A stretch of DNA of 64,000 bases from assembly GCF_036365825.1 (NCBI RefSeq), contig NZ_CP142675.1:744001-808000 (forward strand). Reading direction: 5' to 3'. The notes under the pieces are model-generated. The model ran no database searches. It had not been told where the DNA came from and worked only from the letters and a program-made list of their open reading frames with translations. This stretch comes from Qipengyuania sp. HL-TH1 (GTDB lineage Bacteria; Pseudomonadota; Alphaproteobacteria; Sphingomonadales; Sphingomonadaceae). Within the stretch, counting starts at the first letter, position 1, and each line of letters begins with the position of its first letter. This document shows positions 24,604 to 57,469 of this stretch, one piece after another. Made by a program: the position numbers and the translations under genes.

Positions 24604-26403
24604 CCTTCGACCGCCTCCGCCAGCATCAGCCAGCGCTCCTCCGCGGCATCCTTCTCGGCGCGGGCGTTCTCCAGGCCCTTGGAGATATTGGCGAAGCGCT
24701 GCGGATCGGCAGTGTAGAGTTCGGGATCGGACAGGATCGCCTCGCCCTTGGAAATCGCGGTTTCGAGTTCCTCGATGCGCGTCGGCAGCAGTTCGAAGTC
24801 GCGTTGGTCCTTGTAGGAAAGCTTGTTCGACTTTGCGGGGGGCGGCGGGGCGGCGGGTTTCTCGGCCTGCTTCTCAGCCTTGGGTTTGCCCGCGACCGGC
24901 TGGCGGCGCTTGCGCTCCCAGTCCTCGTAGCCGCCCGCGACCACATCGACCTTGCCGGTCCCGTCGAGGCCGAGCGTAATGGTCACCGTGCGGTCGAGGA
25001 AGTCGCGGTCATGGCTGACGATCAGCACCGTGCCTTCGTAGTCGGCGATGACCTCCTGCAGCAGGTCGAGCGTTTCGAGGTCGAGGTCGTTGGTCGGCTC
25101 GTCGAGCACCAGCAGGTTGCTCGCCTTGGCGAACTCGCGCGCCAGCAGCAGCCGGCTGCGTTCGCCGCCCGACAGCACGCTGACCTTCATGTCGACGATC
25201 TTTGGATCGAACAGGAAGTCCTTGAGATAGGCCTGCACATGCTTGCGATTGCCGCGCACATCGATCCAGTCGCCGCCTTCGGCGAGCACGTGCCGCACCG
25301 TCTTGTCGGCGGTGAGCAGCTGGCGTTGCTGGTCGATCATCACCCCGGTCAGCGTCTTGGCGATGTCGACCTTGCCGCTGTCGGGTGCGAGTTCGCCGGT
25401 AAGCATCTTGAGCAGCGTGGTCTTGCCCGCGCCATTGGCGCCGACAATGCCGATCCGGTCACCGCGCTGGATCTCGCAGCGAGAACGGCTTGATGATCGT
25501 CCGGTCGCCATAGGCCTTGGTGATGTTCTCGGCCGCGATCACCGATTTGGACTTGAAGTCTTCCTCGGTCGCCAGCTTGAGCTTGGCGGTGCCAGCGGCG
25601 TCGATCATCGAAGCGCGTTGCGCGCGCATCTGGCCCAGCTTCTCGAGCCTGCCCTGGTTGCGCTTGCGCCGCGCGGTGACCCCGCGCTCGAGCCAGTGTG
25701 CCTCGAGCTTGAGCTTGGCGTCGAGCTTCTCCGCCGCGCGGGCTTCCTCGGCATAGACCTGTTCTTCCCATGCCTCGTAGCCGCCAAAGCCCACTTCCTT
25801 GCGGCGCAGGCTTCCGCGGTCGAGCCACAGCGTGGTGCGGGTCAGGCGTTTGAGGAAGGTCCGGTCGTGGCTGATGACGAGAAAGGCGCCCTTGTAGCGT
25901 TCGAGCCAGCTTTCGAGCCAGTCGATCGCGCCGAGGTCGAGATGGTTGGTCGGCTCGTCCATCAGCAGCAGGTCGGGGTCCTGCGCCAGCGCTCGCGCGA
26001 TCGCTGCGCGGCGTTTCTCGCCCCCGCTTGCGCCCTTGGTCTCGCGCGCCATGTCGATACCGAGCTGGCCGGCAATGGCGTCGATCTCGTGCTCCTGCGG
26101 CGCATGTTCGCCCGCCAGCGCCCACTCCATCAGCGTGGCATGGCCCGAAAGGTCGGGGTCCTGTTCGAGTACGACGATCCGCGTGCCCGGTTTGGTCTTG
26201 CGGATGCCGGCATCGGTTTCGACCTGCCCGTCGATCATCCGGAACAGCGTGGTCTTGCCCACCCCATTGCGCCCGATCAGCGCGATGCGGTCGCGCGGGC
26301 CGACATGCAGGTCGAGCGGGTCGTGATCGGGCCCGCCGAACAGCCATTTGCCGCCCTGTTGCAGCGCGATGCCTTCGAGGCTGAGAATGGGGGGCTGTGC
26401 CAT
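24600..26403 (-). pseudogene. uup: ABC-F ATPase Uup, interrupted by a frameshift
   Basis: Two reading frames together make one Uup-type ABC-F protein of about 600 residues. The N-terminal part (26403 to about 25480) has GRNGVGKTT, SGGEKRRAAIARAL and LLMDEPTNHLD and breaks off after TIIKPFSL. The C-terminal part resumes with IQRGDRIGIVGANGAGKTT, SGGERSRLLLAREFA and LLVLDEPTNDLD and ends in the Uup coiled-coil domain. One extra base near 25471-25484 (complement CTGCGAGATCCAG) shifts the frame and gives a stop soon after. All motifs on both sides are intact, so a sequencing error or a recent mutation fits better than old decay. Confidence 0.85.
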
Positions 26404-35664: not shown

Positions 35665-35757
35665 GCCGGGAGTCGGTCGGACGTTTGCGTTCGCTCACCG
35701 GGTCAGGTCCGGAAGGAAGCAGCCCAGGTGGATTGCGGCGGGTCGGCCGGCTCCTTT
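35665..35757 (+). ncRNA. ffs: Signal recognition particle RNA (4.5S type)
   Basis: The invariant SRP domain IV sequence GTCAGGTCCGGAAGGAAGCA with the returning strand GCCCAGGTG is present at about 35702-35730. The flanks GGGAGTCGGTCGG and CGGCCGGCTCC pair to close the rod. A T-run follows. ffs immediately before dnaX is the usual gene order. Ends are approximate. Confidence 0.93.
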
Positions 35758-35821
35758 TTCACCCACATTTCGTATGCGCCATGGCATGACTTTTGCCGCG
35801 CCAGTGCCTACCTAGTCGGGC

Positions 35822-43280: not shown

Positions 43281-43366
43281 GGACAGGTGGCCGAGTGGTT
43301 AAAGGCAGCAGACTGTAAATCTGCCCGCGCAAGCGTACGCTGGTTCGAATCCAGCCCTGTCCACCA
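43281..43366 (+). tRNA. tRNA-Tyr (anticodon GTA), island attachment site
   Basis: An 86-base class II tRNA. Acceptor GGACAGG/CCTGTCC, anticodon stem GCAGA/TCTGC around CTGTAAA (anticodon GTA), a long variable arm CCGCGCAAGCGTACGC-like, T-arm GGTTCGAATCC and encoded CCA. The gene is intact although an island is integrated at its 3' end, as expected when the integrating element restores the tRNA. Confidence 0.96.
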
Positions 43367-43574: not shown

Positions 43575-44804
43575 ATGGGTAAACTTTCGGCGGTAGCGGT
43601 AAAGGCAGCCTTGGCGAATCCGGGGACCTATCAGGACGGTGACGGCCTTTTTCTGAAAGTGGACAAGCGCGGAGGCGCTTATTGGAATTTGCGACTTCAG
43701 CGGGACGGCAAGCGACAAGACCTAGGACTGGGCAGCGCTAAACTCGTGACGCTTGCTGACGCACGCGAAAAAGCAAACGAACTCCGCAAGGCCATAAAGG
43801 TCGAAAAGCGCGACGTTCTCACGGAGCGCAAGGACGAGGCTGCCGCCAAGGTGACCTTTCGCGAAGCCGCCACACAGTATCACTCCGAAAACGAGGCGGG
43901 CTGGAAGAGCGCTGTATACGCGCGCCAGTGGCTGGCCAGTCTGGAGAACTACGCTTTCCCGAAGCTTGGCGATTTGCCGACTGGTAGCATCACAGCGGCT
44001 GACATCATCGAGGTCCTGACGCCGATCTGGCAGGAAATCCCGGAAACCGCGCGCCAGGTACGCAACCGGATTTGCGCCGTGCTGGATTATGCACACGCCA
44101 AAGGCTGGCGTTCGACCGAAGCGCCATCTGGCAACAGCAGCCTGAAAGCGGGGAGAGGCCTCCCACGGCAGATCAAGAAAACCCAGAATCGGAAGGCGAT
44201 GCCCTATGTCGCCATTCCAGCGTTTCTGACCGCATTGAGGCGCAGACCATCCTTCGGACGCTTCGCGCTCGATCTCCTGATCCTGACCGGCACGCGCTCG
44301 CAGGAGGTCCGACTCGCGACGTGGGAAGAATTCGATCTGGAGGAACGGCTCTGGACGATCCCTGCCGAACATATGAAGCGCAGCAAGGCACATGTGGTCC
44401 CGCTCTCGGAGGCTGCATTGGGAGTGCTAGCGAAAGCAGATGCATTCCGGATCGAAGGTGCCGAAGTCGTCTTCTCTGGTGCAACCGGCAAAGCGATGTC
44501 CGACATGACGCTGCTAAAGGTGCTGCGCGACATGCAGGAGCCTTTCCACGTTCACGGCTTTCGCTCGGCCTTCACGGACTGGGCGGCGAATGCGGGCTTC
44601 CCTAACGCGGTGGTAGAGGCCGCGCTGGCGCACAAGACGCCCGACGCGGTGCAGGCTGCCTATCGCCGTACCACATACCTTGGCACCAAAGAGGACCCCG
44701 GTATGCGAGTGAAGCTCATGGATGCGTGGGGTGCCTATTGCTCCGGTACAGTCACAGTCAGCGAAGCTCTCAACGCGCAAGACCAGCGCGACGCCCTCGG
44801 CTGA
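43575..44804 (+). CDS. P4-type tyrosine recombinase/integrase
   Basis: A 409-residue integrase. The N-terminal arm-binding domain (DUF4102-like, [20 protein letters not shown] near residue 25) is followed by a core-binding helical domain (about 95-195) and the catalytic domain. Catalytic residues visible are Arg in [12 protein letters not shown], His-x-x-Arg in HVHGFRSAF, His in EAALAHKT and the Tyr in AYRRTTYLG, where either Tyr could be the nucleophile. Its position just after tRNA-Tyr and the matching right-end repeat identify it as the island integrase. Confidence 0.93.
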
Positions 44805-44811
44805 CACACCA

Positions 44812-45319
44812 CTCCCACCGCTGGCGCGCATGGCTTCGCCATGCCGCCTGCCTTCCGGCGAGGATGGGAGGGGGAGGGAAAACCGCAAATCGATGCTCTG
44901 GCGCGGGCCAGCGGGCGTCAGCCCGCCACCCGGGGGCGTCTATTTGCGGTTTCGGGAACGAGAGGGCGAAGCCCTTGGCGTTCCCGCGCAAGGATCGCGT
45001 CCGCGATCCACACAAACAACGGCACCCTTGCACGGCGCGAAGCAGCCGGACGCCCTGCGCGCGCGAGCAGTGCGCCAGCGGGCTTCCGGCAATGAGAGAG
45101 GCAAGAGTGCCTGCGGGTTAGCTCAAGGACGCCGCGCCCTCAGGAGCGCGCAGCGCGGGACAGAGCGCGTCATCCAGAAATTCCCGCTCAACATCAAACT
45201 GCTCCTGATCGTCACCCGAATGGGCCGGGACTACAGGCCCGGTCCGCGCAGCGGATAGAGCAGGTCGCCCGCAAGGGCAGCCTCTACATGCGATACAAGA
45301 TATGGGCTTTAAAATCTTG
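44812..45319. ncRNA. Candidate large structured RNA or hairpin-rich DNA element
   Basis: No convincing gene lies between the integrase stop and the methylase start, but nearly every base here falls in nested perfect stems: CTCCCA/TGGGAG (44812/44865) enclosing GCATGGC-TTC-GCCATGC; AAACCGCAAAT/ATTTGCGGTTT (44880/44942) enclosing CTGGC-GCGG-GCCAG and CGGGC-GTCA-GCCCG; CGGGAACG/CGTTCCCG (44953/44979) enclosing AGGGC-GAA-GCCCT; GGATCGCG-TC-CGCGATCC (44992); GGCAC..TTGC/GCAA..GTGCC (45021/45101) enclosing GCCGGA/TCCGGC; TCCGC-GCA-GCGGA (45243); TAGAG/CTCTA enclosing GCCC-GCAA-GGGC; and CAAGAT/ATCTTG (45296/45314). The GNRA loop favours RNA. Strand and exact ends are unknown. 45320-45499 shows only a CCCC-GAA-GGGG hairpin and presumably holds the methylase promoter. 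Confidence 0.55.
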
Positions 45320-45499
45320 AGCCTAAATTGAGTAGGTTGTCGGGCTTGCTACCAGCCGCTCCACGAAACGGTGCGACAGAAAGCTTCGGGACGACCGCTG
45401 CTTCTTATCCCCGAAGGGGCGTTGCCAATTCTTGATGTTCACTATATGTTCCTACTCCGCCCTGTTGCCGGGTAGCGCAAATAATCTAAGGTGTGCATC

Positions 45500-46972
45500 A
45501 TGTTGGGTACGTCTCCGGAATTTTCAAAGAAGCGGTCAGGGGCCTATTTTACCCCCGACAGCGTCAGCGCGACGCTCGTTTCCTGGGCTTGCCAAAAGCC
45601 AAGCGATCGCATGATCGACCCCTCGTGTGGCGATGGCGCATTCTTGGCCAAACACCGCAATAGCGTCGGCATTGAGCAAAACCCGGTATCGGCCCATCTA
45701 GCAATCGAGCGTGCTCCAGGCGCGTTGGTCCACGAAGGCGATTTCTTCACTTGGGCAATTGAAACCCATGAGCGCTTCGAATGTGCAGCCGGAAATCCTC
45801 CGTTTATTCGCTACCAGACTTTCAAGGGCGAAATGCGACGTCGCGCACTCGATCTTTGCCTTGATCTCGGCGCACGCTTCAGCGGGCTTACCTCATCTTG
45901 GGCACCGTTTCTGGTCGCTACTGCGGGTCTCCTGAAACAGGGCGGCCGAATGGCTTTCGTCGTGCCAGCTGAGATTGGCCATGCGCCTTACGCAGCACCG
46001 CTTCTCGAATATCTCGTCGCCTCGTTTACCCGAGTGCAGATTGTCGCGGTGCGCAAAAAGCTATTCCCAGATCTCTCGGAAGACTGCTGGTTGCTCTACA
46101 CCGAGGGCTTCGGCGGCAAGAGCGAAGCTATTGAGTTCACTATTGTCGACGAGTTCAAGTCAACGAAGGCTCCGCCTAAGCCAACAATACGGGTCAATCT
46201 CGACGAATGGCGTTCCATCTGGAATCGGCGGCTTCGGCCCTACCTGCTGCCCGTCTCGGTCCGCAATCTTTATGCTGATACGCTCGATGACCAGCAGGCC
46301 CGGCGCCTTGCTGACTTCGCGAATGTCGGAATCGGATATATCAGCGGCGACAACAACTTTTTCCATTTGCGGCCTTCGGAAGCGGAGCGACTTAGTATCC
46401 CCGACAGGTTTCTGCAGCCAGCAGTTCGCAACGGGCGGGCCATGCCAGAGCGGCAAATCACCAAAGCCACCGTCGAGAGTTGGAAGCGCAATGACGACCC
46501 CATATTGTTGCTTCGGCTCACCCGTGATCAGGAGCTGCCGACTTCAATCCGCGATTACCTCAACAGCAGCGCCGGACGAGCTGCGCGACAAGGGTACAAG
46601 TGCCGTAATCGCGCGCCTTGGTATGCAGTGCCTGACGTTCAAATCCCCGACTATGTCCTCAGCTATATGTCTGGACGTCGCGCCAATCTTGTTCGCAATG
46701 CAGCCGGCGTTTCCTGTACGAACAGCGTTCATTCGATCCGGATCAGGGACAAAGAGGCAGCGGCAAAGTATCTTGGACAATGGTCCTCGCCGTTTGTGCG
46801 CCTAAGCTGCGAACTCGAAGGTCACGCGCTAGGCGGCGGAATGCTCAAGCTTGAGCCACGCGAGGCGGGTCGCATCGTCTTCCCTGCTATCCCCACGTTC
46901 GGCAAAGAGCGTGACGAAGAACTCGAAGACGCAGTGAAAACAATGCAACGCTGGCGCCACTATGCTGACTGA
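45500..46972 (+). CDS. N6-adenine DNA methyltransferase, gamma class
   Basis: A 490-residue methylase. RSGAYFTPDSVSATLV gives motif X, MIDPSCGDGAFLAKH motif I for S-adenosylmethionine and CAAGNPPFIRYQ the catalytic motif IV NPPF. The C-terminal half (about 250-490) is probably the target-recognition domain, as in M.TaqI and Eco57I-type enzymes. ATG 45500 is chosen because AAGG lies nine bases upstream; an in-frame GTG at 45491 overlaps that site. The next gene is a likely cognate nuclease. The recognition site cannot be read from the sequence. Confidence 0.85.
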   Translation: MLGTSPEFSKKRSGAYFTPDSVSATLVSWACQKPSDRMIDPSCGDGAFLAKHRNSVGIEQNPVSAHLAIERAPGALVHEGDFFTWAIETHERFECAAGNPPFIRYQTFKGEMRRRALDLCLDLGARFSGLTSSWAPFLVATAGLLKQGGRMAFVVPAEIGHAPYAAPLLEYLVASFTRVQIVAVRKKLFPDLSEDCWLLYTEGFGGKSEAIEFTIVDEFKSTKAPPKPTIRVNLDEWRSIWNRRLRPYLLPVSVRNLYADTLDDQQARRLADFANVGIGYISGDNNFFHLRPSEAERLSIPDRFLQPAVRNGRAMPERQITKATVESWKRNDDPILLLRLTRDQELPTSIRDYLNSSAGRAARQGYKCRNRAPWYAVPDVQIPDYVLSYMSGRRANLVRNAAGVSCTNSVHSIRIRDKEAAAKYLGQWSSPFVRLSCELEGHALGGGMLKLEPREAGRIVFPAIPTFGKERDEELEDAVKTMQRWRHYAD

Positions 46973-48906: not shown

Positions 48907-49869
48907 TCAATTGTGCTGCAGTGGCTCGATCAGCATTGCCCAGTAATGCTCCGCTGCGCCTTCCTGAGAAAGCTTCGCCTCTTGCTTTCCGTTGATCGCA
49001 GCAGACATTCCAAAGCTCTTCAGAAAGAGCGATTGATCGTCCGCATCGACGGAAAGGGATTCGTTGAGCGTGTTGCTGGAATCCGTTTCACCATGAACGA
49101 AAGCTATGCCGTTCCCGGTGAACCCGCCGCCCAGGAAAATTGTGCAACGGGCAAGTGCTTTGCCACTTCGATAGACCGACGCGGTAAAGCGGTTTCCATC
49201 AACTCGGCGGAATACGCCTTCGATTCCGTCATTGCGATCCTGCAATTCAGCGAGCGAGTTTTGGAAGTACCGAGCGATAAATTCGAAGCTATCGACGCGA
49301 AACTGATCCTTCTGTCTCTCAGTAAATTGCTTCGCCAATCGCAGGTTGCTGGACCTCGGATTCGTCGCCTCGTTCGCCAACCTACCTTGCACTTGAACAG
49401 TAGGGTTTAGTTGAACGGACTGGGCGCCAGGCTCGAGCTTCTCGACCGCTTTTCGGATTGCCTTGGCCACTTCGAGGAAGGCCTGATCGCGGTCTGGCCA
49501 CTGCGTAATCGGCTTTCCATCCGGAGGCGTTGCATTGATCTTACCGAATGGCGCGTGATGCCACTCGCATGCGCGTAGGATTACGGGAATTACGATTGCC
49601 TCGCCAGCCTCGTGGCGCTCCATGGCGCGCAGCATTTCGCGATCATAGCAATAGTCTGATGCGAGGAAATTAGGACTTACCAGCAGCAGAATGATGTCGT
49701 CGTTCTCAACATGCTGCATGATCTCGGGCTCGAATTCATCGCCTGCACCGATACGCCGGTCGTGCCAAACCTCAATCGCGCCTTGCCGCCTTAGCATCGC
49801 AAGCTGAGTTTCCAATTGATCGCGAAGATTTTCGTCCGCGTGCGAATATGAAAAGAACAGGCTTGCCAC
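48907..49869 (-). CDS. TIR domain protein, probable NAD+-consuming effector
   Basis: A 320-residue protein with an N-terminal TIR domain (about 1-145): VASLFFSYSHADENLRDQLE, VWHDRRIGAGDEFEPEI, IILLLVSPNFLASDYCYDRE with the candidate catalytic Glu, and VIPVILRACEWHHAPFG. The C-terminal ~170 residues match no named domain and may sense infection. GTG 49869 is preferred: GGGAGG lies upstream and homologous TIR proteins start at this point. A longer frame to 50010 has low-complexity character. Bacterial TIR domains commonly cleave NAD+ or make cyclic ADP-ribose signals in anti-phage defence. Confidence 0.8.
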   Translation of the reverse strand: MASLFFSYSHADENLRDQLETQLAMLRRQGAIEVWHDRRIGAGDEFEPEIMQHVENDDIILLLVSPNFLASDYCYDREMLRAMERHEAGEAIVIPVILRACEWHHAPFGKINATPPDGKPITQWPDRDQAFLEVAKAIRKAVEKLEPGAQSVQLNPTVQVQGRLANEATNPRSSNLRLAKQFTERQKDQFRVDSFEFIARYFQNSLAELQDRNDGIEGVFRRVDGNRFTASVYRSGKALARCTIFLGGGFTGNGIAFVHGETDSSNTLNESLSVDADDQSLFLKSFGMSAAINGKQEAKLSQEGAAEHYWAMLIEPLQHN

Positions 49870-56287: not shown

Positions 56288-57211
56288 TCAGTCGTTGGTT
56301 TCAGTCCTCAACTTTGCAAGCCGCTCCGAGCACACCGCGTGCACGACACGGCCTAGCTCCTCGACTTGCTCGCCGAGCCACTCAAGTTCTTCCTTCGTGA
56401 TGCGATAGTGTTTCGAGTAGCGCGCCTTGACGTAGGCTTCCTTGAGCTTCTCGAAGCGCGCACGATCGCGTTTGGTCTCGCGAGGCCAGACATAGGTGAG
56501 ACGCGCGTCGATGCGTTCAGCTTGGGTGCGTAGAAAGCCGAGATTGTGAACGTGGGGTGTGTAAAAAGTGCACACAAGGAGAACTGTATGGTACATCCGC
56601 TCTGCCGATTGGTGCAGATCGAACACAGCTTTTTTGAACTTCCCACGAGCCTTAGCGTCGACATAGCCGTCGAAGAAATCTGATGCGCTCGGCATCCAGT
56701 CTTCAAAATACTCCTGCGCCATCGCCAATGCCTGCTGCGGGGTCTTGGGCTTGGGCGTGTGGAGCTCAGTTTCATCGGACTGGTAGAGCGCGATCCCGTC
56801 CTGCTTTACGTCCATGAAGAAGTAGCGCCCGTGCGCCAGCCCATCGTTCACTTCCTGCAGGGTGTGCACGATGAAATTGACCGGAGTCTTGAGCGACTTG
56901 GTCACGCCATATTCGCGCATCAGCCTGTCATCGAGCTTCGACCAGTATTTGACCCGGTCGACCAGCCGCTTGTCGTTGACGATAACGAGCAGGTCGTAGT
57001 CCGACTGATAGCCCTTGGCGGTATGCGGCTCATCGACCCAGGTACCGCGCGCGTAGCTGCCGTAGAGGATCACCTTGAGGATGCGCCCGGCTTTCTTCCA
57101 TTCGTGCCTGGCGAGCGCGAAGGCATCGTCGAACTCTTCGAAGATCAGCTGCACCACGCGTTCCAGCTCGCGCTGCTTCTGTGGCGGCAGGTGATCAAGG
57201 TCGGTCTTCAT
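56288..57211 (-). CDS. Fused nucleotidyltransferase-HEPN protein
   Basis: A 307-residue protein. The N-terminal minimal nucleotidyltransferase has KVILYGSYARGTWVDEP and GYQSDYDLLVIVND, giving the GS and DxD catalytic motifs. The C-terminal helical HEPN domain (about 165-300) has FDLHQSAERMYHTVLLV and KARYSKHYRI with an R-x3-H pattern. Paired MNT and HEPN proteins form toxin-antitoxin modules in which the transferase AMPylates or otherwise restrains a HEPN RNase. A single-chain form may be self-regulated. ATG 57211 is preferred over 57271. It is the last gene before attR. Confidence 0.8.
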   Translation of the reverse strand: MKTDLDHLPPQKQRELERVVQLIFEEFDDAFALARHEWKKAGRILKVILYGSYARGTWVDEPHTAKGYQSDYDLLVIVNDKRLVDRVKYWSKLDDRLMREYGVTKSLKTPVNFIVHTLQEVNDGLAHGRYFFMDVKQDGIALYQSDETELHTPKPKTPQQALAMAQEYFEDWMPSASDFFDGYVDAKARGKFKKAVFDLHQSAERMYHTVLLVCTFYTPHVHNLGFLRTQAERIDARLTYVWPRETKRDRARFEKLKEAYVKARYSKHYRITKEELEWLGEQVEELGRVVHAVCSERLAKLRTETND

Positions 57212-57469
57212 TATCCGACGCCTAGCAAGATGCTGGAATGGTTGCACCTGCCGATCAGATTTCGTCCGCAATGTCTTCTCATCGGACTCCTTGAGTCAGT
57301 GTGAGCTTCGTACGTCAATACCAAGAACTGGGGAGGGGGCCAAATTTAGTTCTCGCGTCAAACTTGCACCCAGGTGCTCGACGGCCGTGAACGGTGCCTG
57401 TAGGTGGAGTTCGGTAGGTCTCCAACGACCCCGAAAATCGCATGTGAGTGTCTTGCGAAAGACCGAAAT

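Follow-up and report, generated by a model that had tools for sequence, protein, structure and literature searches.

We analyzed a window of 64,000 nucleotides from Qipengyuania sp. HL-TH1 (NZ_CP142675.1, positions 744,001 to 808,000), whose numbering is used throughout. A tRNA-Tyr gene at 43281-43366 is followed by a tyrosine integrase gene (43575..44804, plus strand; Pfam Phage_integrase, Phage_int_M, and Arm-DNA-bind_3), and the first cargo gene to the right, at 45491..46972 on the plus strand, encodes an N6/Eco57I-type DNA methylase (M_Eco57I_C and N6_Mtase); the Pfam matches agree with the two neighbors named in an initial annotation. Further cargo of the island comprises TIR, OLD-like, RNase_H_2/PD-(D/E)XK, and HEPN/nucleotidyltransferase genes. 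The island gave no match to MobA/MobL, Relaxase, or TrwC, and the Pfam scan identified no establishment gene in it. When the tRNA-Tyr end was searched for as a repeat, with three mismatches allowed, the tRNA itself was the only hit.

Between the integrase and methylase genes lies a conserved, hairpin-rich noncoding unit of 460 bases (44823..45282, plus strand), slightly shorter than the 44812..45319 originally marked out. Its limits are given by the match ends of full-length homologues, which cluster at query positions 24-38 and 482-483; aligned chromosomal units span 406 to 533 nt, and one relative, in genome G404, is much shorter. All modules are described on the plus strand. Its leftmost module is a cap hairpin, GCATGGC-TTC-GCCATGC (44828..44844), which is specific to copies without an adjoining establishment gene (here called gene-less) and among which the loop varies and the stem is kept. 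The block CTGCCTTCCGGCGAGGATGGGAGGGGGAGGG (44848..44878), taken from the alignment of homologues, is invariant in the 75 loci described below by construction, since these were fetched with the same 31-mer (one degenerate base). It is followed by hairpin A (44880..44952), a candidate initiation hairpin supported by compensatory changes, with an inner hairpin at 44911-44926, the stem AAACCGCAAAT/ATTTGCGGTTT, and, in the window copy, TCTATT in its 3' arm. Hairpin B, CGGGAACG...CGTTCCCG (44953..44986), has an inner stem around a GAA loop and is likewise drawn from the compensatory-change alignment, and hairpin C, GGATCGCG/CGCGATCC (44992..45009), differs among copies. All three of these stems had been picked out in the initial annotation and are present as described. 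Farther right, a long-range helix, GGCACCCTTGC/GCAAGAGTGCC (45021..45111), encloses hairpin E (45046-45089), and is followed by the C-module (45132..45171), which also occurs alone elsewhere, and the D-module, GATCGTCACCCG...GATAGAGC (45207..45261), which is present on the host's own plasmid as well. Lone C-module copies have a minus-strand ORF at the left and, in L004 and L005 from the host chromosome, an ssb-like ORF at the right; the minus-strand ORF of L004 is presumably akin to a plasmid replication initiator.

ORFs do cross the element, for example one of 178 amino acids at 44722-45258 on the plus strand, but no frame is conserved: only 16 of 414 copy-frames (69 copies in six frames) are open throughout, and indels relative to the nearest relative leave a remainder of 1 on division by three in 183 cases, 2 in 25, and 0 in 13. 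A protein-coding reading was therefore rejected, in line with the earlier judgment that no frame has protein character. Identity with a known RNA was rejected as well; the search of Rfam that had been proposed gave no family match inside the element in release 15, where a scan of the whole window at the gathering score produced five matches, all elsewhere, and none for 44700-45500 even at an E value of ≤1. A bacterial small SRP RNA (RF00169) is found at 35666-35760 of the window. With DNA parameters, the window copy folds at -127.4 on the plus strand (z = -4.3 against 100 dinucleotide shuffles) and -120.0 on the minus strand (z = -3.2); with RNA parameters, the corresponding z values are -3.4 and -1.6. 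Two further copies were shuffled with DNA parameters: L040 gave -4.2 on the plus strand and -3.2 on the minus strand, and L069 gave -2.1 and -2.3, making it the one copy of the three that scored slightly better on the minus strand.

The host genome contains three long copies of the element. Within the order, 86 of 396 genomes have some match at an E value of ≤0.001, many of them to short modules only; the 30 best loci, 29 of them outside the host genome and one within it, were retrieved. A scan of genome contigs with the single exact 31-mer pattern yielded 75 loci, a set biased toward copies that retain it; all come from what we take to be Sphingomonadales, or from metagenome-assembled genomes named only as Alphaproteobacteria or Proteobacteria. 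The same 31-mer, the sole pattern tried there, matched no viral contig, which argues against a phage origin. A class-level search of 385 genomes gave two with a match at an E value of ≤1e-8, the host and G404, which belongs to another family of the same class and carries a short form of the element immediately in front of ardA (PF07275, 3.5e-44); a SIR2_2 gene flanks the opposite side. Nine plasmid records also match by blastn, so that the initial description of the element as carried by sphingomonad islands holds for the islands and has to be widened to plasmids.

The left edge of the element is tied to a gene in most loci. In 59 of the 75, a minus-strand gene encoding some 60 residues begins at the element, and in 3 others the gene in this position is ardC-like; a second class of 11 loci has an integrase or other sequence at the left together with the cap hairpin, and the remaining two, L061 (at a contig edge) and L064, were left unplaced. 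A cluster of minus-strand ORFs occupies the position of DUF3768 in 46 of the 75 loci. All 16 DUF3768 genes (PF12599) that adjoin an element lie on the strand opposite to it, as counted by eye, and one of these genes is interrupted by stops; five further DUF3768 places are not near an element. A gene pair common at the element is seen at 9815-10494 of L118, where a protein of about 60 residues without a Pfam match is followed by DUF3768. We regard both as candidates for uncharacterized anti-defense proteins; a literature search conducted mostly outside subscription journals found no paper on DUF3768. On plasmids, the copies whose neighbors were examined (a survey that covers one copy each of NZ_CP065669, NZ_CP065714, and NZ_CP009431) lie upstream of a minus-strand DUF3768 gene, of a small ORF and then a ParB-like gene, or of ArdC. 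Each of the six two-copy plasmids has two matches to the hairpin B pattern in the same orientation. The element thus forms a hairpin-rich unit upstream of the ribosome-binding site of ardC or another establishment gene, with several units per plasmid.

No comparable order was found on the right. Sequence beyond the element is not conserved among 20 aligned copies, and flanks are not conserved across classes. The nearest right-hand ORF of at least 200 amino acids was scanned for 60 of the 75 loci; within the first 25 entries of lists of 76 and 321 families, the Pfam matches include ResIII (9), HATPase_c_3 (5), C5 methylase (4), DrmD (4), reverse transcriptase (3), and GmrSD_N (2), counts that stand without a background set. 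These ORFs point both ways (28 plus and 32 minus; 4:5 among gene-less copies), which rules out the element as the leader of a right-hand cargo gene.

Covariation among homologues, the check named in the initial annotation, is present. From 73 copies with both ends aligned, 4 were removed at 97% identity, and columns with at least half gaps were deleted from the resulting alignment of 69 (598 to 452 columns), which gave consensus energies of -293 for the plus strand and -277 for the minus strand. Changes at the 86 pairs common to the predictions for both strands were counted by parsimony on a FastTree tree of the 69 copies, and compared with eight controls in which the 3' partner was slid by 3, 4, 5, or 7 columns in either direction. 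Double changes from one Watson-Crick pair to another numbered 48, against 5 to 9 in the controls; the long-range helix accounts for 8 of them and the main stem of hairpin E for 7. A second alignment, built from the 5' halves of 28 diverse copies, among them four from plasmids and that of G404, showed at least one double change in 13 of 38 pairs; at its columns 49/141, U-G occurs in 22 rows and C-G in 4.

The changes also bear on which strand folds. Read on the plus strand, Watson-Crick pairs changed to G-U 113 times and to A-C 50 times, against 399 and 333 in the pooled controls (Fisher P = 0.0006, merely indicative because the pooled controls reuse the same columns). Among 15 helices, G-U exceeds A-C in 12 and equals it in one; A-C outnumbers G-U in the remaining two, hairpin C (10:7) and a stem of just two pairs (2:1). 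Under DNA parameters, 65 of 69 copies fold more stably on the plus strand, and under RNA parameters 60 of 69 do, counts that are not independent, since the copies are related. From the wobble bias and the stability together, sequence comparison indicates that the plus strand is the folding strand. Covariation and strand signals do not distinguish folded DNA from folded RNA.

A conserved sigma-70 promoter (-35/-10) was found on neither strand of the chromosomal copies, and an ordinary promoter on either strand of the element was accordingly rejected. The window copy has none; the sole promoter-like match within 44780-45500 lies outside it, at 45422-45450 on the plus strand. In four of six plasmid copies examined, the 3' arm of hairpin A contains TTGGCG-N17-TATTTT, and in the one copy folded (L114), most of this sequence, though not the first T of TATTTT, is base paired in the DNA structure. 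Chromosomal copies mostly retain TCTATT or a similar sequence, without a -35.

The orientation of relaxase genes was used as a proxy for the transferred strand. MobA/MobL was searched for in 25 genomes, which gave eight pairs of element and relaxase gene no more than 60 kb apart on the same contig. In every pair the two are on opposite strands, with the relaxase gene at the left of the element in five and at the right in three, although these are not independent events, as several of the mobile elements are related. Among eight plasmids, the relaxase is opposite to the element in three of three with MOBP and in three of five with MOBF, the exceptions being NZ_CP110113 and NZ_CP009453; on the host's own plasmid, three D-module matches share a strand, and a TrwC relaxase is encoded opposite to them. 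The relaxase is typically encoded in the lagging region (PMC11541004). Assuming that transcription of the relaxase gene leads away from oriT, the plus strand, which is the template of the establishment genes, would be the one transferred. The F plasmid fits this rule of direction.

In the tree, the window copy groups with nine other gene-less copies (support for this clade of 10, 0.93), and the eleventh gene-less copy, L084, falls outside it. Across all 11, Watson-Crick pairing holds in 94.3% of the 926 cells at the 86 paired positions, compared with 89.9% in the 55 other copies not associated with ardC, and the clade of 10 shows 6 double changes against 0 to 2 in six shifted controls, with a G-U to A-C ratio of 18:7. 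Pair retention and double changes together show that the structure is still maintained in the gene-less copies. The second host copy falls in the same clade; it lies beside a tRNA-Arg gene, with a relaxase about 23 kb away and, at the far end of its island, an integrase-like ORF identified by eye, and no exact 15-base repeat of the tRNA-Arg end was found near it. The island of the third copy (L118, 2061-19271), which contains a MobA/MobL relaxase, an AbiEii-like gene, restriction-type cargo, and an integrase near tRNA-Leu, is likely mobilizable. All three islands contain a HEPN/nucleotidyltransferase gene with a closely similar N terminus (56288-57271 in the window, 5677-6654 in L118, and 24696-25607 in the joined stretch of the second island), the Pfam assignment being that of the window copy.

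Given these contexts, we propose that the unit is a control element for the establishment genes of conjugative or mobilizable DNA and acts as folded single-stranded DNA, an interpretation to which we give an even chance. The co-oriented pairs of copies on plasmids, the adjoining ardC and ardA genes, the folding of the template strand, and the relaxase polarity together fit action on DNA as it enters a cell as a single strand. On this model, the plus strand of the unit would fold when the mobile element enters a new cell, and host RNA polymerase would start on the folded strand, most probably at hairpin A, producing an RNA that runs leftward. That RNA would be the mRNA of the establishment genes (ardC, ardA, DUF3768, or ParB-like), and the same RNA could prime the second strand; conversion to the double strand would then switch the element off. 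The window copy is an orphan, and most likely it has been retained because it serves as a site of single-strand initiation (priming) for an island that would be moved in trans. A bolder extension, which we consider speculative and would sooner doubt than assert, is that gene-less copies in general are stand-alone single-strand initiation sites, the passport with which defense islands lacking a relaxase travel as transferred single-stranded DNA. If so, defense genes hitchhike on the conjugation of other elements, and the sole transfer-related part that such islands must carry is a folded start site for the second strand.

Several other explanations fit part of these data. One of them retains single-stranded DNA and assigns it another function, as an oriT, a single-strand origin for rolling-circle replication, or a site of recombination bordering the variable cargo. 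Plus-strand folding, the sharp ends with variable cargo on the right, and the position of gene-less copies beside an integrase or attachment site would all suit it; the paired copies on plasmids, which precede establishment genes wherever examined, fit gene control better than an oriT, and we consider this alternative unlikely. Alternatively, the minus strand could provide a 5' leader RNA of the establishment genes that controls expression after initiation, for example by attenuation or antitermination. Such a leader would account for the position directly upstream of a start codon in the 59 loci and the 3 with ardC, and the minus strand, too, folds better than its shuffles in the three copies tested. 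The strand signals, however, favor the plus strand (G-U to A-C, 113:50; 65 of 69 copies), gene-less copies retain the pairing, and the 20 aligned copies show no conservation to the right, where such a leader would need its promoter; together these points make a leader distinctly improbable.

The initial annotation had left the choice between a large structured RNA and a DNA element active as a single strand. The context favors the second, since the copies directly precede anti-restriction and establishment genes in a single orientation and it is the template strand that folds, and an independent RNA from the plus strand is not favored. It would agree with the folding strand, and TTGGCG-N17-TATTTT on plasmids could be its ordinary promoter; yet no such -35 is conserved in chromosomal copies, flanks differ across classes, right-hand ORFs show no preferred direction, either overall or among gene-less copies, and Rfam holds no match, so that we rate it as slightly more improbable still than a leader.

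For F-like plasmids, it is fairly well understood how anti-restriction genes of incoming conjugative DNA come to be expressed before the host can destroy that DNA. The present family is large and alphaproteobacterial, covaries, shows a strand signal, and includes orphan copies, so that the question can be approached comparatively, and the element may serve as a marker for establishment genes and mobilizable defense islands in sphingomonads. Among the matches listed by a literature search on leading-region promoters of sphingomonads or other Alphaproteobacteria, largely outside subscription journals and screened by title and opening of the abstract, there was none on such an element.

Three known systems offer comparisons. 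Single-strand origins (sso) of rolling-circle and integrative elements are strand-specific folded DNA on which RNA polymerase primes the second strand; they are shorter than the present element and are not known to be tied to anti-restriction genes. In the pLS20 family, EGeRS1 is 400 to 600 bp long, hairpin rich, and present in several copies per plasmid directly upstream of ardC or other establishment genes, without a strong conventional promoter (PMC8708921), features that it shares with our element. The differences are that EGeRS1 belongs to Gram-positive plasmids and ours to Alphaproteobacteria, and that in pLS20 the zincin-metallopeptidase gene (taken as ardC) is on the strand opposite to the relaxase gene, whereas the MobA/MobL relaxase and establishment genes share a strand in the present case. 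Regions of pLS20 and F for comparison were located as repeats upstream of the zincin and ssb genes, respectively, and not by published coordinates. Folded per strand, the three EGeRS1 copies (44008-44427, 45760-46377, and 48993-49499 of pLS20) gave -165.7, -127.0, and -117.3 for the template strand and -136.1, -109.5, and -91.1 for the other; the template strand is far more stable in all three, the same sign as in F Frpo. The authors of the EGeRS1 report state that the transferred strand is the nontemplate strand, argue against a single-stranded DNA promoter, and describe no agreed mechanism (PMC8708921). Strand asymmetry alone is thus no proof of mechanism.

The Frpo/ssi regions of F-like plasmids also occur in repeated copies at leading-region establishment genes (PMC9849209, PMC11541004), a position in one orientation that our element takes in the 59 plus 3 of 75 loci and not at the window copy. 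No sequence similarity to either system was found, as the 69 copies gave no blastn match at an E value of ≤0.01 to F 50-68 kb or pLS20 1-50 kb; by comparison, the F copies align with each other over a block of 464 bases (88.8% identity). Unlike Frpo, where the -35/-10 is rebuilt in the folded stem, chromosomal copies have no recognizable -35/-10 pair, and orphan copies occur in islands without establishment genes. As chromosomal copies lack the promoter boxes and no copy matches Frpo in sequence, we do not class the element as Frpo; our claim is that it works like Frpo, whose template strand likewise folds more stably than the other, at -118.2 versus -110.0 and -124.2 versus -112.8 in the two F copies that served as our yardstick.
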